The translations under genes and the position numbers were made by a program. A stretch of DNA of 31,784 nt from a virus, in IMG/VR virus record IMGVR_UViG_3300032163_000070, positions 1-31,784 of that record, one strand, 5' to 3'. Shown here in pieces: positions 1,293-26,584 of this stretch (its first letter is position 1; each line of letters begins with the position of its first letter). The notes under the pieces are model-generated. The model ran no database searches and was not told the DNA's origin. It worked only from the letters and a program-made list of their open reading frames with translations.

Positions 1293-2195
1293 ATGAAACA
1301 AGAATTTCTTAAGGCTAAAACAGGCACGATAAGATTAACGGTTTATGATAATAACAGGGCAATTATTCCTACATCAGCTAAAATTACTCTTTATAAAACT
1401 GATGGCACGACTGAATTGCAAGCGCAGGCGGACGCTTCAGTAAATTCTACAACAGGAGAGATGACTTATTCTCTTACAATAATACATACGGCAGATCACG
1501 ACTTAAATTATAAAGCCTTATGGGAATATGTTTATAATGGCTCTACTTATTATGAAACGCAACTTTTTGATGTAGTTAAAAGTATTCTTTCAATTCCTAT
1601 TACCGACGAGGATATTTATAACGAATTAGAAAGCCTGCGTAAGACTAATATTCAGGCTCAAGGCACAGCCACCGCAGGCGCGACAGGTTCATTAACCGAT
1701 ACCGCCAAGCGTAAAGAAGATGATAATTACTGGAAGGGCGGCATTATTGAGATTTTAGCAGGCACAGGAATAGGACAAAAAAGGGATGTAACTGGCAATA
1801 CACAATCAACCGGCGTGATAACCCTTACCCCTAATTGGGCTACCACTCCCGATACTACTTCTATTTATAGGATAGTTAAATCATTCTCAAACAAGATACA
1901 ACAGAGTTTCAGGAAGTTAGAAACTATGTTTTATGATAAAGGCAAGCGTGATTCATTAATCTTGGAAAGCTCGCAAATAGAAATACCCTTGCTTTATTTA
2001 ACTGTCCATTTTATCTGCCTTGACTTAATGGATGAGATAAACGACAAATGGGATATGCTGGCTCGTTCATATTGGGATAAATTTCAGAATTCTTTTAATA
2101 ATATGAAACTTGAATACGACGCGGATGAATCAGGCGGGGTTGATGAGGGCGAAGAAGGGCATAATCCGTCAGAATTAAGAATAGGCAGAGCATGA
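1293..2195 (+). CDS. Head-tail connector (neck) protein candidate
   Basis: 300 residues. The N-terminal ~90 residues form a beta-rich domain (TVYDNNRAIIPTSAKITLYKTDGT). A middle segment (about 125-195) has the GSLTDT...YWKGGIIEILAGTGIGQ pattern seen in phage structural proteins, which describes small beta barrels. The C-terminal helical part (about 200-275) ends in an acidic tail (YDADESGGVDEGEEG). Position between the capsid side and the gp10/tail-terminator-like genes, and the mix of beta and helical regions, fit a neck or head-completion protein. Ribosome site GGGGTGAAAG lies just before the ATG. It overlaps the next gene by 4 bases. Family assignment is tentative. Confidence 0.5.
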   Translation: MKQEFLKAKTGTIRLTVYDNNRAIIPTSAKITLYKTDGTTELQAQADASVNSTTGEMTYSLTIIHTADHDLNYKALWEYVYNGSTYYETQLFDVVKSILSIPITDEDIYNELESLRKTNIQAQGTATAGATGSLTDTAKRKEDDNYWKGGIIEILAGTGIGQKRDVTGNTQSTGVITLTPNWATTPDTTSIYRIVKSFSNKIQQSFRKLETMFYDKGKRDSLILESSQIEIPLLYLTVHFICLDLMDEINDKWDMLARSYWDKFQNSFNNMKLEYDADESGGVDEGEEGHNPSELRIGRA

Positions 2196-2881
2196 AAATC
2201 TTATCAGTAAATATTCTAACTTGGAATAATTTTGATACCTTGCATGATACCTTGCATAATCTTAAGGAAGATTTAGAGGATATAGATTACGAGGTTATCA
2301 TTATTGACAATGGCTCAAATGATTTATGCGCTAAGGCGGCAACTATCGCCAATCCAGAAAATTTAGGTATATCAAAAGCCAAGAATCAAGGAATTGAGGC
2401 AAGCAAAGGCGAATTTATTTTATTATTAGATGGCGATGTTGTGTATATGCCAAATAGTATCCAATGCCTAATACAATGGCTTGAGAATAACCCGGTAGAA
2501 TACGCTATAGGATTTTATCCTAATAAATTCACCAATGAAAAAGGATTAGAAGAAAAAAGATGTAATTTGTTATTTGAACCTAAGCCATATACGGCTACTT
2601 GCCTTTATTATGGTATGTATAGAAAAACAATGTTTGATTTGGGTATCCGTTGCCCTGTTGATGGGCCGTTTAATAAACCCGGGTATGGCTGGGAAGATAG
2701 GGATTTCTTTATGCAGATGAAGCAAAAGGGCGTTATTCAATGGGTGGCAGGTATCAATTCAGCAATAGGCAAGTATTATCATGCTATAAATTCATCCATA
2801 AGGGAAATGGGGCATGAGGAATATATCAGGAGTTCTAAAGAGCGCGCTAATCATTTTAAGGCAAAATGGATAAACTCATAA
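2192..2881 (+). CDS. Family 2 (GT-A fold) glycosyltransferase
   Basis: 229 residues with a recognisable GT2 layout: N-terminal nucleotide-binding strand with the VNILTWNNFDTLHDTL start, IIIDNGSND at about 37-44, NLGISKAKNQGIEASKGEFILLLDGDVVY at about 57-85 containing the metal-binding DGD (80-82), and a downstream GYGWEDRDFFM acceptor/catalytic region near 163-173. The size is that of a minimal catalytic domain without a membrane anchor, so a soluble cytoplasmic enzyme transferring sugar from a nucleotide sugar is expected. It overlaps the neck gene before it (4 bases) and the helical gene after it (16 bases), so it is co-expressed with virion genes. That suggests glycosylation of a virion component, but the acceptor is unknown. 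Confidence 0.88.
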   Translation: MKILSVNILTWNNFDTLHDTLHNLKEDLEDIDYEVIIIDNGSNDLCAKAATIANPENLGISKAKNQGIEASKGEFILLLDGDVVYMPNSIQCLIQWLENNPVEYAIGFYPNKFTNEKGLEEKRCNLLFEPKPYTATCLYYGMYRKTMFDLGIRCPVDGPFNKPGYGWEDRDFFMQMKQKGVIQWVAGINSAIGKYYHAINSSIREMGHEEYIRSSKERANHFKAKWINS

Positions 2882-3168
2882 ATAATCATATAGATGATAT
2901 AGAAAAATTAGCGGAAGAATTAGATGCCATTATAGATAATGCTATTGATAATATTGATATAAGAGCATTAGTTAAAGACCCGACAGCAGAATTGCAGAAG
3001 ATTACCGATGAGATAAAGGAAATATTCATAGAAAAATATGCGCCGCAGGCTGTTGAATTAGGGTTTGATTTTGCCAAAAGGATACAGGAAAAAATAGAGA
3101 AAGATAAGCCTATTAAGATAAATGATAGCAATAATCCTAACTTAAATAAAGATGAAAAAGCAGTTTGA
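2866..3168 (+). CDS. Small acidic helical protein, unknown
   Basis: 100 residues, dominated by amphipathic helices rich in Ile, Asp, Glu and Lys (IDDIEKLAEELDAIIDNAIDNIDIRAL, then KITDEIKEIFIEKYAPQAVELGFDFAKRIQEKIEK). No transmembrane segment or cysteine. It starts inside the end of the glycosyltransferase gene and its end overlaps the next gene by 17 bases, so it belongs to the same operon. The family is not recognised. It may be a virion-assembly accessory protein or a partner of the flanking glycosyltransferase/DUF6165-like pair. Confidence 0.5.
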   Translation: MDKLINNHIDDIEKLAEELDAIIDNAIDNIDIRALVKDPTAELQKITDEIKEIFIEKYAPQAVELGFDFAKRIQEKIEKDKPIKINDSNNPNLNKDEKAV

Positions 3169-3523
3169 CACAATGGATTTTGGCATGGGCGATGTAATAG
3201 ATAAAATGACTATACTCACCCGCAAAACTTACTTCGGTGAAGAATTTGCCCATATTGAGTTAGACGCTTATATAAAGAAGTTAGGCAAACTCGGTGAGTT
3301 GCTTGTTAATACTATTAGGTTAGGGCAAATAAATTTTGAGATATGGAATTTAGAGAACGAATTGCGTAAGGGCGGAGAAGATAAATTTTCATTAGAAGAA
3401 ATAGGGCGCAGGGCAATCAAGATAAGGGATTTTAATAAAAAGCGTATTCAATACAAGAACGAAATAAATAGGATTACTCAAACAGGATTTATAGAATATA
3501 AAATTAAGCACCGAAGCCAATGA
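3152..3523 (+). CDS. DUF6165-like protein
   Basis: 123 residues. The N-terminus reads MGDVIDKMTILTRKTYFG, which matches my memory of the GELIDKITILEIK-type opening of the DUF6165 family, small helical proteins often found beside glycosyltransferases in surface-polysaccharide loci. The remainder is helical with regularly spaced Leu, Glu and Lys (LGKLGELLVNTIRL, IWNLENELRKG, GRRAIKIRDFNKKRIQYKNEIN). It overlaps the helical gene before it by 17 bases and the gp10-like gene after it by 4. Placement one gene after a GT2 enzyme strengthens the comparison. The biochemical function of the family is not known to me; the assignment is from motif recall, not a search. Confidence 0.45.
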   Translation: MKKQFDTMDFGMGDVIDKMTILTRKTYFGEEFAHIELDAYIKKLGKLGELLVNTIRLGQINFEIWNLENELRKGGEDKFSLEEIGRRAIKIRDFNKKRIQYKNEINRITQTGFIEYKIKHRSQ

Positions 3524-17246: not shown

Positions 17247-17271
17247 CACAACTCAATTATTGGAGGTGGAG

Positions 17272-17778
17272 ATGCTAATAAATAGAGTTTGGGCTATGCC
17301 TAATAAATGGACTTTTGCTATAATACCGATTAGGGATTTATTAAATAAATATACTAATATTGGGTTATGGTGCGACCCTTTTGCAGGACAAAATTCTCCC
17401 GCAGAAATAACTAATGATATCGTTGAAAAAAGAGCAAAATTCAACTTGGATGCACTTCAGTTTTTGAAATCAAGAGATACTGAACGATTTTATGGTTGTT
17501 TATATGACCCACCCTATTCTATTACACAAGCCCGGATGTATGGTAAAAAGGAATATTCGTCTATGAAGTATTGGGCTGACTGTAAAAATGAAATGGCTCG
17601 GATTATAAAACCCGAAGGTATAGCAATTTGTTGTGGCTGGAATAGTATGGGGCTTGGGAAAAACAGAGGATTTGAAATGATAGAAATATTACTCGTAGCC
17701 CACGGCGGGAGTAAAAATGATACTATTTGCACGATAGAAAGAAAATTCACCACCCACCCAAAGGAGATGAGGAGATGA
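17272..17778 (+). CDS. DPPY-type adenine methyltransferase-like protein
   Basis: 168 residues from ATG 17272 (GGAGG at 17262-17266); a TTG at 17260 is too close to that site. SAM-binding motif I region LWCDPFAGQNS at about 32-42 and catalytic motif IV YDPPYS at 78-83, then a helix and ICCGWNSMGLG strand region, in the order I to IV as in alpha/gamma DNA N6-adenine methyltransferases. It is short and lacks a target recognition domain, which is common for small phage methyltransferases that modify one short site. It would act on phage DNA to avoid host restriction or mark replication; the target is unknown. Confidence 0.65.
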   Translation: MLINRVWAMPNKWTFAIIPIRDLLNKYTNIGLWCDPFAGQNSPAEITNDIVEKRAKFNLDALQFLKSRDTERFYGCLYDPPYSITQARMYGKKEYSSMKYWADCKNEMARIIKPEGIAICCGWNSMGLGKNRGFEMIEILLVAHGGSKNDTICTIERKFTTHPKEMRR

Positions 17779-18214: not shown

Positions 18215-18369
18215 TGACTTGGCGTAAGTCGCAAATGGTGCAAGAGGGGCTTTGGTCAGTCCTGATTTTACATCTATGCGAGCAATCCTATGGGGCAGGC
18301 AATTGGAATGGGGAATCCTGTTCGGCTGCCCTGTTATTTAACCCCACGAAAGGAAAACTAAATGGATAA
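18214..18369 (+). CDS. 51-residue protein, unknown
   Basis: ATG 18214 overlaps the previous stop (TAATG) and is preceded by GGAGG. Product MTWRKSQMVQEGLWSVLILHLCEQSYGAGNWNGESCSAALLFNPTKGKLNG. A short hydrophobic helix (LWSVLILHL) and a Gly/Asn-rich segment. Its end overlaps the start of the next gene by 8 bases. No family recognised. Confidence 0.35.
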   Translation: MTWRKSQMVQEGLWSVLILHLCEQSYGAGNWNGESCSAALLFNPTKGKLNG

Positions 18370-18748
18370 GCATTGTGTAAGTTTAGAGATAGCCAAGCAG
18401 TTAAAGGAATCTGGCTTTAAGAAGGAAACAGAGTTTTGTTGGGAGCATTACAATAAAGCTGTTATTGGTAAGAAAAGGATTTTACAGGGGGAACTTAATT
18501 GGAAATTAACAAAAGGAATGGTTTGTAAATGGGATGGAAGATTAGCTCATTACCCAGCCCCTCTCGCCACAGAGATTTTAGAGGAGTTACCAAGAGAAGT
18601 TAGCATAAAACAATATCCTGAAAATGATAGTGTAAGGTATCAGGTAGGACATAACGCTGGCAGAATGGCATTACAAACCTTTAGATATAGTAATAATTTA
18701 TGTGATGCGTTAGCAGAAATGTGGCTATATTTGAGAAAGGAAAACTAA
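18362..18748 (+). CDS. 128-residue conserved-looking phage protein, unknown
   Basis: MDKHCVSLEIAKQLKESGFKKETEFCWEH... has an N-terminal helix, a Trp/Lys-rich middle, a YPAPLATEILEELPREVSIKQYPENDSVRYQVGH region (66-97) and a C-terminal helix (NLCDALAEMWLYLRKEN). The 'YPAPLATEILEELP' block is one I associate with small uncharacterised phage proteins. AGGAAAAC ribosome site from the repeated start cassette. Function unknown. Confidence 0.5.
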   Translation: MDKHCVSLEIAKQLKESGFKKETEFCWEHYNKAVIGKKRILQGELNWKLTKGMVCKWDGRLAHYPAPLATEILEELPREVSIKQYPENDSVRYQVGHNAGRMALQTFRYSNNLCDALAEMWLYLRKEN

Positions 18749-19247: not shown

Positions 19248-19383
19248 AGGCACTTGCCCTAAATGTGGCAACGAAATAATCGGCACAGATCATTGGGAAG
19301 AAGGAAATATTGTGATTATGGGCTTTTGTGATAAATGCCAATTGCATTATAGCGAGGATGAAATTGACTGGGAGGAGAAATGA
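19231..19383 (+). CDS. 50-residue zinc ribbon protein
   Basis: MERKFKGTCPKCGNEIIGTDHWEEGNIVIMGFCDKCQLHYSEDEIDWEEK: two knuckles CPKC and CDKC 24 residues apart make a classic zinc ribbon. ATG 19231 has a GGGGAGGAG site. Its stop overlaps the start of the next gene. Possibly nucleic-acid-binding or protein-binding. Confidence 0.55.
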   Translation: MERKFKGTCPKCGNEIIGTDHWEEGNIVIMGFCDKCQLHYSEDEIDWEEK

Positions 19384-19910
19384 TGAAAAAGAAAATCATT
19401 ACTAAAGAATGGCTACAAGAGAAATCAGCATGTGCAAGCGGAGTGGATTGGTTTGACGCCCAAAAAGATACCGACGCAGTAAAAGTTTTGAAGAAACTAA
19501 TCAAAGAAGATAAGCTGGGTTGGGCTAACTGGACAATTTGTCGTGTATTTGATTACAAACAAAGAGTGCAATATGCCGTATTTGTAGCAGAGCAGACGAT
19601 TGACTTATATGAAAAGGAATATCCGAATGATAAAAGACCAAGATTAGCAATTGAGGCGGCTAAGAGATGTATAGAAAATCCAAGTAAAGAAAATAAGGCT
19701 GTTGCCAATGCCGCCGCCTATGCCGCCGCCTATGCCGCCTATGCCGCCGCCTATGCCGCCTATGCCGCCGCCTATGCCGCCAATGCCGCCGCCTATGCCG
19801 CCGACTATGCCGCCAATGCCGCCGACTATGCCGTCTATGCCGCCGCCAAAAAAGAAATGAAAGTTAAAATACTAAACTATGGAATAAAACTTTTGGAAGA
19901 TAATGATTAG
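19383..19910 (+). CDS. Imm5-like protein with Ala/Tyr repeat tract
   Basis: 175 residues from ATG 19383 (GGAGG at 19371-19375, 7-base spacer; the ATG at 19380 is 4 bases from it). The N-terminal ~105 residues (KEWLQEKSACASGVDWFDAQKDTDAVKVLKKLI...YPNDKRPRLAIEAAKRCIENPS) resemble the Imm5-type group, in which 'P.D.RPR.AIEAA..' precedes Ala-rich helices. Residues 108-155 are almost wholly AAY/AAN/AAD units and end in a basic helix. Immunity proteins neutralise toxins; a phage copy could be antitoxin or anti-defence. The family is inferred from pattern recall, not a search. Confidence 0.45.
   Translation: MKKKIITKEWLQEKSACASGVDWFDAQKDTDAVKVLKKLIKEDKLGWANWTICRVFDYKQRVQYAVFVAEQTIDLYEKEYPNDKRPRLAIEAAKRCIENPSKENKAVANAAAYAAAYAAYAAAYAAYAAAYAANAAAYAADYAANAADYAVYAAAKKEMKVKILNYGIKLLEDND
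19704..19847 (+). repeat. In-frame GCC-rich microsatellite encoding Ala/Tyr repeats
   Basis: 48 codons in which every Ala is GCC, interspersed with TAT, AAT and GAC codons in units such as GCCGCCTAT and GCCGCCGCCTAT. G+C is far above the flanks, whose Ala codons are mixed. The pattern indicates expansion by slippage, with length probably variable between phage copies. Confidence 0.85.
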
Positions 19911-19986: not shown

Positions 19987-20081
19987 TATCTAAAATTTTA
20001 TTTATAATTTCCATTTTTTGTTGTTATTGTGCCTTTGTTTTGATTGTGGCGGGATTTTGCGGGATGAATGATGATAAATAA
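19980..20081 (+). CDS. 33-residue single-span membrane peptide
   Basis: ATG 19980 has a GGGGG site close by. MVISKILFIISIFCCYCAFVLIVAGFCGMNDDK: a Cys-rich hydrophobic helix (residues 5-28) and a short acidic tail. Its end overlaps the start of the thiamine-diphosphate enzyme gene, so it may be coupled to that cassette. Function unknown. Confidence 0.4.
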   Translation: MVISKILFIISIFCCYCAFVLIVAGFCGMNDDK

Positions 20082-20679
20082 ACAGCAGTTAATTGATTTT
20101 GAAACTTTAGTAATTAAGGAATTTGAACAAGGGCATATTAATTGTCCAATTCATCTGTCTGGAGGAAATGAGGATGAACTTATAGATATATTCCAAAATA
20201 TTGATTCTAAGGATTATGTTATATCTACTCATAGAAATCATTATCATTATTTGCTCAAAGGTGGTGATCCGCAAGCTTTAATGGCAGAACTTAAGGGGAA
20301 AAAAGAGGGTTGTTGCTATGGGCATGGCCGCTCTATGCACATATATGACCCGGATATAAATTTTTATACATCTGCTATTGTAGCGGGTGGTTGTGCTATT
20401 GCTTGTGGGTTAGGATTAGCAGGGAAACGAACATTCTGTTTTCTTGGTGATGGAACGGAAGATAGCGGACATTTTATTGAAGCAATTAGATTTGTCGAGG
20501 GGCGCAATTTACCAGTATGTTTCATTATTGAAGATAATGGTATTGCGGTAGAAAGTAAACATGCCGATAGATGGGGGAAATTTGCTAACAGTGCTTTTTA
20601 TGATTCAAAAAAAGTAATCAGGTATTCATATAAACGAATTTATCCGCATGTTGGTGTAGGGAGGCATATTAGTTTTTGA
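20068..20679 (+). CDS. Thiamine-diphosphate enzyme, alpha (PP-domain) subunit, E1-alpha-like
   Basis: 203 residues. Clear match to the N-terminal core of 2-oxoacid dehydrogenase E1 alpha: STHRNHYHYLLKGGDPQALMAELKGKKEGCCYGHGRSMHI (53-92), SAIVAGGCAIACGLGLAGKR (102-121) and the ThDP/Mg motif GDGTEDSGHFIEAIRF...FIIEDN (GDG 127-129, Asn157). Full E1 alpha is over 300 residues; this stops after the cofactor domain. With the beta subunit next door it could form an alpha2beta2 enzyme that cleaves or transfers two-carbon or acyl units from a 2-oxo acid or ketose. No E2 or E3 gene is visible. ATG 20068 or 20071 is the start; TGATG overlap with beta. Confidence 0.82.
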   Translation: MMINKQQLIDFETLVIKEFEQGHINCPIHLSGGNEDELIDIFQNIDSKDYVISTHRNHYHYLLKGGDPQALMAELKGKKEGCCYGHGRSMHIYDPDINFYTSAIVAGGCAIACGLGLAGKRTFCFLGDGTEDSGHFIEAIRFVEGRNLPVCFIIEDNGIAVESKHADRWGKFANSAFYDSKKVIRYSYKRIYPHVGVGRHISF

Positions 20680-21191
20680 TGATTTATAAAGACAGGCTTA
20701 CAGAAGATATGGAATGGTTAGCAAAGCAATCTAATACCATATTCTTAGGCGAAGGAATTATTAACGCCGGCAGGATTTATGACACATTAGATAAAGTATC
20801 ATTAGAGAAATGTATTGAAATGCCGATTGCCGAGAATTTAATTGCCGGTAGTGCTATCGGTTTAGCTATTGCGGGCTACAAGCCTGTTGTAATATTTCAG
20901 CGTATGGATTTTATGCTTATTGCCGCAGACGCCATTATAAATCACATGGCCTTAATACCGAAAATGAGTGGGGGTAAGGTTAAGTTACCAATTATCATAA
21001 GAGCAACCATAGGCTCAAGGGATAAAAAATTTGATTGCGGCCCGCAACATAACCACGACTTTAGGCATATATTTTCGCCTTACATAACTACATTTGATTA
21101 TGAACAGGGAATTTATGAAGTCGCTTATAACAGAAATGAGCCAGTTTTAATTGTGGATGATAAAGATTTATACGAAAGGAATGTAGATTGA
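20679..21191 (+). CDS. Thiamine-diphosphate enzyme, beta (Pyr-domain) subunit, E1-beta-like
   Basis: 170 residues from ATG 20679 in a TGATG overlap with alpha (a TTG at 20676 is less likely). IFLGEGI, CIEMPIAENLIAGSAIGLAIAGYKPVVIFQRMDFMLIAADAIINHMA (45-92) matches the E1 beta Pyr domain; Glu52 occupies the position of the Glu that activates the cofactor's aminopyrimidine ring. KLPIIIRATIGSRDKKFDCGPQHNHDFRHIF corresponds to the 'G.GP.HSQ' active-site region, here with His residues. The C-terminal domain that dimerises and docks E2 is absent, so this is a minimal stand-alone enzyme and not a pyruvate dehydrogenase part. Confidence 0.8.
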   Translation: MIYKDRLTEDMEWLAKQSNTIFLGEGIINAGRIYDTLDKVSLEKCIEMPIAENLIAGSAIGLAIAGYKPVVIFQRMDFMLIAADAIINHMALIPKMSGGKVKLPIIIRATIGSRDKKFDCGPQHNHDFRHIFSPYITTFDYEQGIYEVAYNRNEPVLIVDDKDLYERNVD

Positions 21192-22009
21192 AACCGATAA
21201 TATTACCGGAAAATTATAATTATATCGCGGCATTTCTTACCTTGTGCTGTAATCTTAATTGTGATTATTGTATTAATAGGCAAGGGGAATTTAAAGTTTC
21301 TGAAGAGATGTCAGGTAAGGATTGGATAAAAGGGCTTTTAAGGATACAAACACGAGAAGATTTGTCGATTACTTTGCAAGGCGGCGAGCCGACTTTGCAT
21401 AAAGATTTTTATGAAATAGCCGGTAAGCTATATGATAAAAATAAGAAAATGGATTTGTTGACTAATGGCTTATTTGATGTAGGGGAATTTTGTAATAAAA
21501 TATCTCCAAGTGTATTTGAGCGCGAGGCTAAATATGCGAGTATCCGTTTCAGTTACCATGCCAATACAAACATGCAAGCGCTTATGGCTAAAGTGTGGTT
21601 ATTACAAATACGCGGTTATAGTGTAGGAATTTGGGGATTAGATAATATTGACAATACAGAAATTCAGGATTTTTGTAAGTGGTTAAATATAGATTTTAGG
21701 GTTAAGGAATATCTTGATAAAACGCATGGCACTTATAAATATCCAAAGGCATTAAATGGTAGGTTAAAAAAGGTGTTATGCAAGCCAAGCGAGTTATTGA
21801 TAAATCCTGTCGGTTATATTTTTCGTTGCCACGCCGATTTATACGCAAACCGTAATCCCATAGGCCATATTCTTGCAGATGAGATTACTTTTCCCGATTA
21901 TCTGCCATGTGATTATTTTGGGGCATGCAATAGTTGTGATATAAAATTAAAGACAAACCGTTTTCAGGAATACGGACATTGTAGCGTAATTATTGAGGGG
22001 GTAGAATGA
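21188..22009 (+). CDS. Radical SAM protein 1 with C-terminal Cys cluster
   Basis: 273 residues, TTG start overlapping the beta stop (ATTGA) with AAGGA 9 bases upstream. Radical SAM motif CNLNCDYC (Cys21, 25, 28), SAM-binding GGEPTLHKDFYEIAGKLYD (65-83), TNG at about 91-93, and a C-terminal region LCKPSELLINPVGYIFRCHADLY...CDYFGACNSCDIK...GHCSV with at least six Cys, like an auxiliary SPASM/twitch cluster. Such enzymes modify peptides or sugars by hydrogen-atom abstraction. Substrate unknown; context suggests a glycan precursor or a protein side chain. Confidence 0.85.
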   Translation: MKPIILPENYNYIAAFLTLCCNLNCDYCINRQGEFKVSEEMSGKDWIKGLLRIQTREDLSITLQGGEPTLHKDFYEIAGKLYDKNKKMDLLTNGLFDVGEFCNKISPSVFEREAKYASIRFSYHANTNMQALMAKVWLLQIRGYSVGIWGLDNIDNTEIQDFCKWLNIDFRVKEYLDKTHGTYKYPKALNGRLKKVLCKPSELLINPVGYIFRCHADLYANRNPIGHILADEITFPDYLPCDYFGACNSCDIKLKTNRFQEYGHCSVIIEGVE

Positions 22010-22034
22010 AATATGGGTATATTTAGGAGAAAAC

Positions 22035-23096
22035 ATGGATAAATGGTTAATGGACTCAAACAAACTTTTATGGCATCCTGATCGTTTAAAGGATTTCCAG
22101 GATGGTAAACGAATTATGCCCATTTTAATTGATATAGGAATTCATAAAGGATGCAATATAAAATGTGTTTATTGTTATGGGATAAAGCAAACAAGGGGTA
22201 TGGCATACATTCCTGAAGATAGACTTTTAATGATGGCTGAAGATGCTAAAGAAGTCGGAATAAAAGCGATAGCTATTATTGGCGATGGTGAACCGTTAAT
22301 GAATAAAGGATTATACCCATTTGTGAAGAAACTTAAAAGATTAAAGATAGATTGTGGTGTGGCTACAAATGGATTGTTGCTCGATTTTGACAAATTAACA
22401 ACACTAACCTCTTCATGTACTTGGCTTAGATTTAATATATCTGGGGTAGATAAATACGAAAAGATTATGGGTGCTCCATTGGGAAGTTTTAAGAGATTTG
22501 AGGTTATTATTAAAGATGCAGTTTATTATAAATCAAAATGTACAATAGGATTACAAGCTGTTCTTATTCCAGATGGGTTTAGTGAGATTATCCATTTAAC
22601 AGAAAAGGCGATAGAATGGGGAGTAGATTATTTGGTGATTAAGCAATTCTCTGATGGTGGCGAAGGTATGCCAATGCACTTTGATATGGATGATTATGAT
22701 AAAGCTACAAAAGATTTGAAGATAGCTGAGTCTATGACAACAGATAAAACTCAGATTATAGTGAAGTGGGAAGCTATGAAGGATAGCCGAAATATAACTA
22801 AGAATAAGAAATGGGAGTTTGATAGATGTTTAGACTTACCATTCTTATTCCAGATTTCAGGAGATGGGGGTTGTTATCCTTGCGGATTTCTCTTTGGAAA
22901 TAAAGATTATTGTTACGGTAATATCAAGGAAGAAAGGCTTATTGATATACTTTATTCGAAAAAGTATTGGGATATTATTAAGACGATTGCTAAAACTCCG
23001 TTAGATAAACTTTGTAAAGGACAATGCCGTCATTGTAAGATTAACAAGTTCATTTGGGATTATTTACATAAACCAGAACATATTAATTTTATATAA
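22035..23096 (+). CDS. Radical SAM protein 2 with SPASM domain
   Basis: 353 residues, GGAGAAAAC site before the ATG. Motif CNIKCVYC (Cys40, 44, 47), then IGDGEPLMNKGLYPFVKKLK (GDGEP in place of GGEP), ATNGLLL, and a C-terminal SPASM-type region: DRCLDLPFLFQISGDGGCYPCGFLFGNKDYCYGNIKEERLIDILYSKKYW...LCKGQCRHCKIN, with the typical 'C...C.....G.N..E......' spacing of auxiliary [4Fe-4S] ligands. SPASM enzymes act on peptides, alcohols and sugars. Low G+C like the rest of the phage. It abuts the next radical SAM gene exactly. Confidence 0.88.
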   Translation: MDKWLMDSNKLLWHPDRLKDFQDGKRIMPILIDIGIHKGCNIKCVYCYGIKQTRGMAYIPEDRLLMMAEDAKEVGIKAIAIIGDGEPLMNKGLYPFVKKLKRLKIDCGVATNGLLLDFDKLTTLTSSCTWLRFNISGVDKYEKIMGAPLGSFKRFEVIIKDAVYYKSKCTIGLQAVLIPDGFSEIIHLTEKAIEWGVDYLVIKQFSDGGEGMPMHFDMDDYDKATKDLKIAESMTTDKTQIIVKWEAMKDSRNITKNKKWEFDRCLDLPFLFQISGDGGCYPCGFLFGNKDYCYGNIKEERLIDILYSKKYWDIIKTIAKTPLDKLCKGQCRHCKINKFIWDYLHKPEHINFI

Positions 23097-24506
23097 ATGA
23101 GAGTTTTAATCATAGCTCCAAGATATAAGTCTTTCGGTCTGTATTACGAGCTTCCCCTGGGCCTCGCTTATATCTCCGCATATCTGAAATCCAAAGGGGT
23201 AGAAACTACCCTTTACAACCTGAATGAAGTGGTAAACGATAACGGGTTATGGGATCATATCAAGCGGGTCGATGTTATCTGCTCTGGAGGCCTGTCCGTC
23301 CATTATGGGGAGATGAAACGCCTGCTTGATAAAGTGCGCCGGGTAAATCCTTCCGCCAAGATAATCTTAGGCGGAGGGTTGTTAAGTTCAGAGCCGGAGC
23401 TTATGATGTCAATGCTCCACCCGGACATAGGCGTAATCGGAGAGGGCGAGATCGCTTTATATGACGCGGTTGTGAATATGCCTTCATCCGGCTCAATAGT
23501 CAAAGCCGAGCCGATCAAGAACTTAGACGCTTTGCCTTTCCCGGATTATGAGGGGTTAGGTGTCCGCGCATACCTTGAGCGCCAGATTGCCGGAGATGAA
23601 CATTATCTCTACCCCTTTGACAATCCGCGCTGCCTGCCCGTAATATCGAGCCGTTCTTGCCCGCATAACTGCTCATTCTGTTTTCATCCTTTAGGCAAGG
23701 TTTACCGCCAAAGGTCTTTGGATAATTACTTTGCCGAGATCGAGTTATTGATCGAGAGTTACCAGATAAACATGGTCGCGGTATTGGATGAGCTTATATC
23801 TGTATTCCCGGAACGCATTAACGAGTTCTGCGTTCGCATAAAGAAATACAGCCTGAAATGGATGACGCAAATGCGCGTGGACAGCGTAAACCAGGATACG
23901 ATCAATATGCTTAAAGACGCGGGATGTATTCAGATAAGCTACGGGATAGAGCATATCAACAAGGAAGTCCTCAACAATTATAATAAGCGTATTACCCCGG
24001 AACAGATCGAGAAAGCGTTAGAGATGACTTATAATGCCGGGATAGGTATTCAAGGCAATATGCTTTTAGGCGGGCCGAAAGAAACCCCGGAATCTGTCGG
24101 GCAAGTACTGGCATGGCGCAATAAGAACTTGAAATATCATATCAATATAACTCCTATTACCGCTTACCCCGGGACTGACCTTTACATCTACGGGAAGTCT
24201 TGCGGAAAAATAGACGGGCGTTCTTTTATCGAGCAAGGTTGCCCGTTCATCAACTTTAACAATGCCCCAGTGAATTTCCCGGTTGAGTTTATTTATTCAG
24301 ATAAATCAAACTTTACCCCGGCAACTGATGATCCTTACCGGGGGCAACTTTTCCAACTCGAGGCTGTCTGCCCACATTGTAAATATGAAAATCTTTATAA
24401 AAACATATTCAAGTCGGGAACGGCTTTATCATTTACCCAGGGTAAGGCTTACAGGATAGCTTGCCGGAACTGCAATCAGAGGTTTGATATGAGGTTAGAC
24501 GGATGA
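23097..24506 (+). CDS. B12-binding-type radical SAM protein (class B-like) with zinc ribbon
   Basis: 469 residues. N-terminal Rossmann B12-binding-like domain (MRVLIIAPRYKSFGLYYELPLGLAYISAYLKSKGVETTLYN ... LGGGLLSSEPELMM...GVIGEGE; no DxHxxG, so base-off His binding is not assured). Radical SAM motif CPHNCSFC (Cys188, 192, 195), then a TIM-barrel region (QMRVDSVNQDTINMLKDAGCIQISYGIEHIN; MLLGGPKETPESV). The C-terminal ~40 residues carry CPHC and CRNC, a zinc ribbon. Codons are visibly richer in G+C (about 45-50 percent) than the flanks (about 30-35), marking recent transfer. Members methylate or rearrange unreactive carbons. ATGA overlap with the next gene. Confidence 0.85.
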   Translation: MRVLIIAPRYKSFGLYYELPLGLAYISAYLKSKGVETTLYNLNEVVNDNGLWDHIKRVDVICSGGLSVHYGEMKRLLDKVRRVNPSAKIILGGGLLSSEPELMMSMLHPDIGVIGEGEIALYDAVVNMPSSGSIVKAEPIKNLDALPFPDYEGLGVRAYLERQIAGDEHYLYPFDNPRCLPVISSRSCPHNCSFCFHPLGKVYRQRSLDNYFAEIELLIESYQINMVAVLDELISVFPERINEFCVRIKKYSLKWMTQMRVDSVNQDTINMLKDAGCIQISYGIEHINKEVLNNYNKRITPEQIEKALEMTYNAGIGIQGNMLLGGPKETPESVGQVLAWRNKNLKYHINITPITAYPGTDLYIYGKSCGKIDGRSFIEQGCPFINFNNAPVNFPVEFIYSDKSNFTPATDDPYRGQLFQLEAVCPHCKYENLYKNIFKSGTALSFTQGKAYRIACRNCNQRFDMRLDG

Positions 24507-25231
24507 AATTATTGACAATATGTCCAAGCCGGAATAGGCCAGAGTTATGTAAAAGGATGTTGGATAGTTTTGATAAAACTAAAAGTGAATGGTCGAATAT
24601 AATTGTCTATGTATCTGTTGATGACCCGCAAATAGGCAAATATGAGGATATTTTGAACGGGCGGTTACATATTTTTGGGCCACGCCGCACATTAGTAGAA
24701 GTTATTAATTATGTATCCTGCGAATATATGTCTGCTATTGCCTATTATCAGGAAGTGAATGACGACCATATCTATATTACCGACAAATGGGATGAGAAAT
24801 TGATAGGCAAGATTGAATATGGCGGTAATAAATTCGGTATGGCTTGGGGAAGGGATGGGATGAATAATAATGACAATCCTAATCTGCCGACTGCTGTAAT
24901 TGTATCTGGAGAGATAATCAAGGCATTAGGATATTTCTTTCCGCCTCATCTAAAACATATTGCCTGCGATGACGCACTTTTAGATATAGGCAATAAGACT
25001 AAGACTATATTTTATAATCCAGAAGTTACTATTGAGCATATGCATTATTATGCCATTGTGAATAATAAGCATAAGGCTCCTTTAGATGATAATTACAGGT
25101 CAATATATAATGAGGCGACTTTAAAAGAAGGTAGGCAATTGCTTCACGAATGGCGCAGTAATAATATGGAAAAAGACATAGAAAGGGTGAAAAATGCAAT
25201 CAAAAATTGGCGTGCTAATCAGGTGTTATAG
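24503..25231 (+). CDS. Glycosyltransferase A (GT-A-like)
   Basis: 242 residues, starting in an ATGA overlap. N-terminus MKLLTICPSRNRPELCKRMLDSF is the nucleotide-binding strand-helix; IIVYVSVDDPQIGKYEDIL and AYYQEVNDDHIYITDKWDEKL (NDD at 86-88, DxD-like metal site) follow, then SGEIIKALGYFFPPHLKHIACDDALLDIG (acceptor region with CDD) and VTIEHMHY. Paralogue of the enzyme at 25886 with the same motifs throughout. Soluble, no membrane span. Likely transfers a nucleotide-activated sugar in the same pathway as the radical SAM enzymes. Confidence 0.78.
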   Translation: MKLLTICPSRNRPELCKRMLDSFDKTKSEWSNIIVYVSVDDPQIGKYEDILNGRLHIFGPRRTLVEVINYVSCEYMSAIAYYQEVNDDHIYITDKWDEKLIGKIEYGGNKFGMAWGRDGMNNNDNPNLPTAVIVSGEIIKALGYFFPPHLKHIACDDALLDIGNKTKTIFYNPEVTIEHMHYYAIVNNKHKAPLDDNYRSIYNEATLKEGRQLLHEWRSNNMEKDIERVKNAIKNWRANQVL

Positions 25232-25889
25232 CATTACGGATTATCTACCGTATTTACTTAAAAATTATGCTTGGGTAGATAGGATTGTAGTTATGAACTA
25301 TCGGTTTACATCAGCCGAACCAAGAGAAGATGATACTGAAGAAGTTGTAAAAGAATATATTGATAAATGTTTTGAAAATTTGAAAGTGCCTAATATCCAA
25401 TTAAATAAAGGCGAAGGCTTAAAGCAACATGCGATATTAAACAAGGGGTTAAAACTTTTATCCGATTGTGATATTGTTTTCATTTCTGATGCTGATGAGT
25501 TTATGACGCAGGGTGCTATGCGGGATATAGCGATTAAGATGATTGAGGATGATAAGAATTTAGGATATGCCAAAATTATTGATTATGCTTTTGATTTCTA
25601 TCATCGTTTTGATAATAGACATCTTAGCGGGGCTTTGGTTGTGGTTAAACCGCAGGAGATAAAGTTTAAGCACATCCGGCAACCGCAGGATACCAATTTA
25701 AGGAAGATACAATTTGAGCATATCTTATACCACTTTGGGTTTGTGTTGCCGCCTGAGACTTTGAAATGGAAACTGCAATGGGAGAGCAAGGAAGAAAAAT
25801 TAGATATAGTTAAGGGAATTGGCGAAACAAACATAGTTTTAGCCAAACCTCCAGACAAGGAAATTATGGAACTTTTAGATGAAGAATGA
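25194..25889 (+). CDS. Glycosyltransferase B (GT2/GT92-like)
   Basis: 231 residues; ATG lies 38 bases inside the end of enzyme A, with GAAAGGGTG upstream. Features: KIGVLIRCYSITDYLPYLLKNYAWVDRIVVMNYRF, KGEGLKQHAILNKGLKLLSDCDIVFISDADEFM (DADE at 99-102 as the metal-binding site), then SGALVVVKPQEIKFKHIRQ and EHILYHFGFVLPPE. It resembles the GT92/GT2-type 'glycosyl transferase family' proteins and is not a close relative of enzymes A and C. It overlaps enzyme C by 4 bases. Confidence 0.78.
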   Translation: MQSKIGVLIRCYSITDYLPYLLKNYAWVDRIVVMNYRFTSAEPREDDTEEVVKEYIDKCFENLKVPNIQLNKGEGLKQHAILNKGLKLLSDCDIVFISDADEFMTQGAMRDIAIKMIEDDKNLGYAKIIDYAFDFYHRFDNRHLSGALVVVKPQEIKFKHIRQPQDTNLRKIQFEHILYHFGFVLPPETLKWKLQWESKEEKLDIVKGIGETNIVLAKPPDKEIMELLDEE

Positions 25890-26584
25890 GATTACTTACT
25901 ATTTGCCCCTCGCGCGATAGACCGGAATTATGCAAGCGCATGCTTGATAGTTTTAATGCTACAAAATCTAAAGATACCGAGATAATAGTTTATGTGGCGG
26001 ATGATGACCCTCAATTAGATAAATACAAGGAGATATTAAATGACATTAATCATATAATCGGTTGGCGCAGGTCTTTAGTTCAAGTGCTTAACTTTATTTC
26101 AACTGACCGATACCCGGGTGTATTTTATTATCAAGAAATTAACGATGATCATATTTACCTGACTAAGGGTTGGGATAGGATTTTAATAAATACCATAGAG
26201 GCAGAGGGCAAGGGTTGGGGGATAGCTTGTGCCAATGACTTAATGACTAATGAGCCGTGGGAAGTGGCCCGGCATCCAAGTGCGGCAATTATATCTGGGA
26301 ATATAGTAAGGACTCTTGGTTATTTTGTATTGCCAGAGTTAGAGCATTTATATACTGATACTTATTTACGGGATATTGGAGAGGGGATTAAGGCATTATT
26401 CAGGCTTGAGGGCGTAGTGATTGAGCATTGCCATTGGCTTTCAAACAAGGCGGTAAAAGAAGCCTATGTTGCTGTATATGACCAAGAGAAATTTAGGGTT
26501 GCTTATCGTGTATATCATAAATGGATAAAATATCAACGAAAATTAGATATTGAGAAATTGCTTAAGGCAAGGGATGGGTTATAA
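25886..26584 (+). CDS. Glycosyltransferase C, paralogue of A
   Basis: 232 residues. MRLLTICPSRDRPELCKRMLDSFNATKS, IIVYVADDDPQLDKYKEIL, FYYQEINDDHIYLTKGWDRIL and SGNIVRTLGYFVLPELEHLYTDTYLRDIG align one-to-one with enzyme A, so A and C arose by duplication with B inserted between. The acceptor region differs (YTDTYLRDIG against ACDDALLDIG), suggesting different acceptors or order of addition. Last gene of the cassette. Confidence 0.78.
   Translation: MRLLTICPSRDRPELCKRMLDSFNATKSKDTEIIVYVADDDPQLDKYKEILNDINHIIGWRRSLVQVLNFISTDRYPGVFYYQEINDDHIYLTKGWDRILINTIEAEGKGWGIACANDLMTNEPWEVARHPSAAIISGNIVRTLGYFVLPELEHLYTDTYLRDIGEGIKALFRLEGVVIEHCHWLSNKAVKEAYVAVYDQEKFRVAYRVYHKWIKYQRKLDIEKLLKARDGL

Follow-up and report, generated by a model that had tools for sequence, protein, structure and literature searches.

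The same aminocyclitol oxidation is catalysed by a radical S-adenosylmethionine (SAM) enzyme, BtrN, and by a zinc dehydrogenase, NeoA. YerE is a thiamine diphosphate (ThDP) enzyme that adds an acyl anion from a pyruvate-type donor to a keto sugar. Phages use glycosyltransferases for DNA glucosylation. The variable regions of pelagimyophages and cyanophages carry lipopolysaccharide (LPS) and O-antigen modification genes (PMC7029224). Here we analyzed the virus record IMGVR_UViG_3300032163_000070 of IMG/VR, the whole of which (31,784 bases) is called the window, and in which eight consecutive open reading frames (ORFs) at 20068-26584 encode a split ThDP enzyme (E1a and E1b), three radical SAM proteins (r1, r2 and r3) and three glycosyltransferases (g1, g2 and g3; Table 1). 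We suggest, with a probability of roughly 0.45, that this is a mobile cassette for building a keto sugar of altered chain and for its attachment, with glycans of the host surface as the most likely acceptor.

Recurrence of the cassette

Scans of viral contigs with single E1a and r1 sequences returned no relatives, and alignments were needed as queries. With an alignment of the diphosphate-binding (PP) half, E1a-type relatives were found in 339 viral stretches in one viral scan, confirmed by tblastn (80 were kept for comparison), and at 30 loci of prokaryote genomes, chiefly Nanoarchaeota, Woesearchaeota, Deltaproteobacteria, Prochlorococcus and candidate-phyla bacteria. The r1 alignment recovered 30 viral loci. 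The core formed by E1a, E1b, r1 and r2 is present in many phage contigs, including a phage of 735 kb, and also in DPANN archaea and Deltaproteobacteria. Among the loci of our comparative scans (labelled L plus a number), the run E1a-E1b-r1-r2-DUF4254-glycosyltransferase-g1 is contiguous or nearly so in L117, L123, L124, L125 and L128; L144 has the same run with a different ThDP pair, and L118 has the same genes with the DUF4254 gene leading.

A preliminary description of this DNA, made from its letters, had listed the eight genes with mostly overlapping junctions, and we confirmed all eight ORFs at their positions. It had also proposed a profile search of phage and bacterial metagenomes for conserved co-occurrence; in our scans the core indeed recurs. 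Its alternative of a one-off or chimeric assembly is excluded by this recurrence and by the continuity of G+C, since the cassette (0.377) follows the phage genome (0.371), with only r3 deviating among the cassette genes, and thus gives no sign of a chimera.

Within flanks of at most 9 kb, the structural proteins of the window that were tested have no relatives at the other cassette loci, which suggests that the cassette moves between phages. Almost the sole other genes shared with cassette contigs are those of two small proteins encoded 5' of it (17260-17778 and 18362-18748), with relatives in L124, L125 and L116. Two contigs are likely mislabelled: one labelled as Acinetobacter 'phage' that holds chromosomal acetoin genes (L005, CAKLQF020000010.1) and was excluded from the comparison, and a contig titled Bifidobacterium breve with a cyanophage-type cassette (L100).

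The ThDP pair and its replacement by truncated transketolases

E1a matches Pfam E1_dh (8.8e-19) at model positions 8-166 of 300, about half of the model, and stops short of the C-terminal part found in ordinary E1 alpha. The sole Pfam match of E1b is Transket_pyr (1.1e-9), with no transketolase C domain. Together, they match the two halves of the 405-aa phage family phrog_34187, E1a covering positions 14-198 (1.5e-55) and E1b positions 237-404 (6.1e-32). In alignments of four members, the window and three other phages with 46-51% identity to E1a and 38-41% to E1b, the GDG motif (127-129), the beta Glu53 (Glu52 if counted from the ATG at 20679) and the beta His125 are invariant. The split ThDP enzyme of the preliminary description is thus well founded; of its GDG...N motif, the GDG is invariant and Asn157 is kept in the window, but S-SM2 carries Asp at that position.

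The pair has the PP and PYR domains, the ThDP motif and the catalytic Glu and His of E1 enzymes but not their C-terminal transketolase_C domain, and it differs from transketolases (Transketolase_N, PYR and C domain) in being of the E1_dh type and in the same missing domain. General scans of the neighbours with Pfam and other hidden Markov models (HMMs) turned up no E2 or E3 beside the ThDP pair, although no search was aimed at them, and E2/E3-type genes were seen at L005 only, where they are the ordinary bacterial acetoin genes. A pair without the C domain and with no E2/E3 noted beside it would therefore probably not act as the E1 of a dehydrogenase complex, and a 2-oxoacid dehydrogenase complex is disfavoured. 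The predicted model of the fused ThDP enzyme (pTM 0.89) has fold matches to Dxs, transketolase and E1.

In the r1 tree, 18 loci have an E1-type pair in the ThDP slot and 5 loci (L126, L130, L134, L141 and L144) have a truncated transketolase pair. The latter adjoins r1 and r2 and is composed of Transketolase_N and a Transket_pyr part that measures 152-175 aa and lacks a C domain (Pfam was run on 3 of the 5 loci). The five transketolase loci need 5 changes on this tree, no fewer than shuffled labels (4.7), and at least 2 changes between the two types are forced by its starred branches, which indicates that the ThDP pair was replaced more than once while r1 was retained. Except for the ThDP pair, L144 and L128 are nearly alike in gene order. 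Since the transketolase pair fills the same slot, the simplest reading is C2 transfer by both, and this suggests that the E1-type pair does ketol transfer and not 2-oxoacid dehydrogenation.

Apparent exchange of r2 with a zinc alcohol dehydrogenase

The fused ThDP class is found in cyanophages, Prochlorococcus and candidate-phyla bacteria. Its ThDP gene adjoins one for an MDR-family zinc alcohol dehydrogenase (MDR below), and in the split class this neighbour is r2. The split class includes some 44 loci of freshwater phages, closely related to one another, with the order E1b-r2-E1a between head and tail genes and two glycosyltransferase-like genes upstream. Among 50 non-redundant E1 loci (<80% identity), r2 is near the ThDP genes in 32, MDR in 15, neither in 3 and both in none, within the tested distance. 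The r2/MDR label changes 3 times on the tree, compared with 12.7 to 13.0 for shuffled labels. Fusion state and partner are associated (Fisher test, 6e-10), a value that is not a tally of independent events because the loci are related; two loci depart from the association in a telling way, L094 having a fused gene beside r2 and L070 a split pair beside MDR. At L047, an r2-like gene is several genes distant from an MDR-partnered E1ab. In a search of 16 genomes, strong r1 matches were found in 6 of the 12 with r2 at the E1 locus and in 0 of the 4 with MDR. As r2 and MDR are mutually exclusive near the ThDP genes, we propose that r2 may substitute for a dehydrogenase, much as BtrN and NeoA stand in for each other in aminocyclitol synthesis, a reading drawn from the exchange and not from structure.

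Each of r1, r2 and r3 has a match to PF04055. In r2, which also matches SPASM (PF13186), only four auxiliary Cys are conserved (265, 283, 327 and 331): the three radical SAM Cys and Cys265, Cys283 and Cys327 are present in 42/42 aligned homologues and Cys331 in 40/42, with no additional conserved auxiliary Cys among those checked. The combination of CxxxCxxC and four auxiliary Cys is that of the fully ligated BtrN (PMC6231123), and the pattern of r2 is accordingly assigned, by its cysteines, to Twitch and not to full SPASM. The fully ligated clusters of BtrN and anSME are thought to accept the electron of the radical intermediate (PMC6231123). BtrN as the nearest relative of r2 by fold or sequence is unsupported, being at rank 31 with the AF2 model of r2 (pTM 0.89) and missing among the sequence matches. 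Although r1 lacks a Pfam SPASM match, its five auxiliary Cys are invariant in the alignment. The two SPASM-like and one B12-type radical SAM proteins described previously are thus confirmed as to PF04055 and the B12-binding domain of r3, but r2 is Twitch-like and r1 has no SPASM match in Pfam.

The best solved relative of r3 is AprD4, an oxidoreductase of apramycin biosynthesis (1.6e-14). Its G+C (0.458) and G+C at third codon positions (0.534) deviate from those of its neighbours (0.33-0.38 and 0.23-0.35), which suggests recent acquisition, and r3 is probably a later addition to the cassette. One r2 homologue (L006:2867-4900) has an intein-like insertion with two LAGLIDADG-like motifs within the radical SAM CxxxCxxC motif, reaching 677 aa where about 360 is usual. 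The Manatee Spring podophage L145 (MW202801.1, 7989-12652) has another radical SAM glycosylation cassette between its capsid and stabilisation genes; besides an r2 relative and glycosyltransferases, it encodes a methyltransferase, a PhyH-like oxygenase and a NodB-like protein.

The nature of both partners also bears on a branched-chain sugar, in which the ThDP pair would decarboxylate pyruvate or another 2-oxoacid and the acyl anion would join a keto sugar from r2 or MDR, as in the YerE reaction, to give a two-carbon branch before the glycosyltransferases act. E1, the nearest enzyme in sequence, uses 2-oxoacids, the dehydrogenase partner would provide the ketone, and the setting is one of sugars. 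We regard this product as unlikely; the recurrent swap with truncated transketolase pairs indicates ketol donors, even though a protein of L144 matches Pfam DXP_synthase_N and Dxs uses pyruvate.

Sugar-pathway neighbours and glycosyltransferases

The fused relatives are often followed by a PfkB kinase, an SDR epimerase, a cytidylyltransferase (CTP_transf) and GmhA, all parts of an ADP-heptose-type pathway. Around the split class in cellular genomes, SDR epimerases account for 19 of 113 neighbouring proteins, and methyltransferases, GT2, GT9, cytidylyltransferase-like and PfkB proteins occur too. GT9 genes adjoin r2 in L009 and L010, and in L134 the genes of a cytidylyltransferase and a LicD protein adjoin r1 and g1. 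A total of 63 Streptomyces phage records hold relatives of g1, which in many of the records listed, and at the one locus inspected, stand beside an annotated heptose kinase/adenylyltransferase or nucleotidyltransferase. The ADP-heptose set (GmhA, kinase, nucleotidyltransferase and epimerase) of the fused-class relatives was not seen in the window. Such company bears on a general metabolic role, with the ThDP pair and the radical SAM enzymes feeding host carbon metabolism and the glycosyltransferases as unrelated neighbours. Phages do carry central-carbon genes, and the cyanophage copies are annotated as transketolase-like; however, in phages as in archaea and bacteria the linkage to glycosyltransferase and sugar genes is tight, and the minimal ThDP form differs from housekeeping enzymes, which makes this role very improbable.

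Both g1 and g3 match phrog_14945, annotated as glycosyltransferase, and neither has a Pfam match. The three glycosyltransferases of the preliminary description thus agree with phrog_14945 for g1 and g3 and with a sub-threshold GT2 match for g2, but a further GT2 gene and a DUF4254-like gene elsewhere in the window had been overlooked (Table 1). The DUF4254-like gene lies 17 kb away from the cassette in the window and within it in other phages (L116-L118, L123-L125, L128 and L144). Since g1 and g3 also match phrog_2675, annotated as DNA methyltransferase, as another window protein matches a DNA methyltransferase, hypermodification of phage DNA with an unusual sugar was considered as well. The PHROGs scans, which were not exhaustive, gave no match to a hydroxymethylase, a thymidylate-synthase-like protein or a base kinase, and DNA, a target named previously, finds no support and is the least likely of the readings weighed here.

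Proposed function and target

We infer the reactions, their order, the substrate and the target as follows. As a radical SAM dehydrogenase, r2 would act on a sugar or polyol (phosphate) and turn one of its hydroxyls into a ketone, a step that the zinc alcohol dehydrogenase would perform in the sister class. E1a and E1b would then shift a C2 unit in a transketolase-like manner, using the ketol so formed. This would yield a ketose, perhaps of heptulose type, whose carbon chain is new and which r1 and r3 would tailor by oxidation, epimerisation, deoxygenation or methylation. Conversion of the product to a nucleotide sugar would depend on phage genes in the relatives and on host enzymes in the phage of the window, and g1, g2, g3 and the GT2 protein encoded at 2192 would attach it, most likely to a host-surface glycan. 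A module for building a sugar or acyl group and transferring it, with a two-carbon transfer, had been suggested before; the heptose-type neighbours, the glycosyltransferases and the transketolase swap agree with this putative module.

Several points weigh against a chain-altered keto sugar. The E1 fold search is unable to tell Dxs, transketolase and E1 apart, the E1-type sequence is closer to enzymes that use 2-oxoacids, and the DXP_synthase_N match of L144 leaves a pyruvate donor possible. The fold search with r2 is unspecific, with SuiB, SkfB, DesII and anSME at the top. Few independent switches underlie the mutual exclusion of r2 and MDR, since the 3 changes mostly track the split/fused division. 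The labels MTase, hldD and PfkB of our scans denote broad superfamilies, and no kinase, isomerase or nucleotidyltransferase was found in the window. Finally, the genome position of the cassette varies: L036-type phages have it between their head and tail genes, a place that fits modification of the virion as well, and in L125 its location is that of early genes.

The main other candidate for the target is the virion: the radical SAM proteins would alter a structural protein and the glycosyltransferases would decorate it. Besides the L036-type position, the location of the window cassette before the terminase and of the r2 and glycosyltransferase set 3' of the capsid gene in MW202801 would fit, and the best fold matches of r2 include the peptide-modifying SuiB, SkfB and anSME. 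However, there is no obvious precursor peptide, the ThDP enzyme and MDR would have no clear role, the clusters that hold the cellular relatives are of polysaccharide type and the position in L125 is early, so that we consider this scheme quite unlikely. Host-surface glycans are preferred because of these polysaccharide-type clusters and because LPS modification by phages is known (PMC7029224); their change by the keto sugar would serve superinfection exclusion or receptor masking, virion proteins being a less likely target.

More tentatively, and with less confidence than for the window itself, the cassette could belong to an unrecognised sugar-biosynthesis system that phages share with DPANN archaea and bacteria and trade between unrelated phage genomes. 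In this system, a ThDP ketol-transferase of minimal two-domain form (E1- or transketolase-type) and a radical SAM or zinc dehydrogenase would make a new class of chain-altered surface-glycan sugars. If true, glycan synthesis in phages and archaea would include a new step that builds carbon chains, the interchange of E1 with transketolase and of a radical SAM with a zinc dehydrogenase would offer a natural test of enzyme exchange, and the widespread unnamed phage family (339 loci) would gain a role. As two cultured cyanophages, S-SM2 and P-TIM68, carry the fused form, the question is testable now.

Genomic context

The matches of the window proteins in PHROGs point to a siphophage genome (Table 1), with small proteins matching replication initiation, single-stranded DNA-binding (SSB) and Holliday junction resolvase families. 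The cassette immediately precedes the terminase genes. Its eight ORFs are closely packed on a single strand, with 4-base overlaps (TTGA or ATGA) at E1a/E1b, E1b/r1, r3/g1 and g2/g3 and an overlap of 38 bases at g1/g2, while r2 and r3 abut and r1 and r2 are 25 bases apart. Directly 5' of it, 19380-19910 encodes an Imm5-like/phrog_38757 protein with alanine-rich YAA/NAA repeats. The protein of 11301-12107 matches the second domain of Mtd, the tropism determinant of a Bordetella phage, and this is likely the receptor-binding region.

Table 1. Features of the window, with positions and supporting matches.
Feature	Position	Strand	Basis
Fourth glycosyltransferase (GT2), near DUF4254-like gene	2192..2881	+	PF00535, 2.8e-21
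DUF4254-like partner protein	3152..3523	+	HMM, 1.6e-48; 56% identical to L006 homologue
Tape measure	7041		PHROGs match
Distal tail protein	8561		PHROGs match
Sak4-like annealing protein	14565		PHROGs match
E1a, PP half of minimal ThDP enzyme, 203 aa	20068..20679	+	Pfam E1_dh, phrog_34187, GDG motif
E1b, PYR half of ThDP enzyme, 171 aa	20676..21191	+	Pfam Transket_pyr, phrog_34187, alignment
r1, short radical SAM protein, five conserved auxiliary Cys	21188..22009	+	PF04055, alignment, 30 viral loci
r2, radical SAM protein, Twitch-type four-Cys auxiliary site (predicted)	22035..23096	+	PF04055 and PF13186, alignment, AF2 model
r3, B12-binding-domain radical SAM protein, putative accessory tailoring enzyme	23097..24506	+	PF02310 and PF04055
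g1, glycosyltransferase, phrog_14945 type	24503..25231	+	PHROGs; recurrent cassette member
g2, GT2-like glycosyltransferase, weak match	25194..25889	+	Pfam PF00535, E 0.0019, below cut-off
g3, g1 paralogue, 45% identical	25886..26584	+	PHROGs, pairwise comparison
Terminase large subunit	27905		PHROGs match
Portal	29208		PHROGs match
Scaffold	30772		PHROGs match

Comparison with known systems

The preliminary description knew of no described phage module of this composition; we found no description of the whole set in the open-licence literature either, but the ThDP enzyme is already present in cyanophage annotations and in phrog_34187. The cyanophage 'transketolase central region' protein of S-SM2 and P-TIM68 belongs to the same family (47% identity to E1a and 38-43% to E1b) and differs in being a single fused chain, with a zinc alcohol dehydrogenase as partner in place of r2, inside a heptose-type operon. 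With the 2-oxoacid dehydrogenase E1 alpha-beta, the pair shares the fold, the GDG motif, the beta Glu and His, the two subunits and the best sequence matches, but it has half the length, lacks the transketolase C domain and the C-terminal alpha region, has no E2/E3 noted nearby and is of a type swapped with transketolase-like pairs. BtrN and NeoA offer a parallel in the apparent exchange of a Twitch radical SAM enzyme with an MDR dehydrogenase and in the four-Cys auxiliary site, although BtrN is missing among the sequence matches of r2 and is only at rank 31 in the fold search. Parts of the ADP-heptose pathway (GmhA, HldE and HldD) and GT9 heptosyltransferases accompany relatives of the ThDP enzyme and of g1 but are not seen in the window, and the known pathway has no ThDP or radical SAM steps. 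The phage cassettes of PMC7029224 likewise hold glycosyltransferases, rfaE and radical SAM genes, and the parts of that study which bear on them describe no ThDP/radical SAM module of the kind found here.

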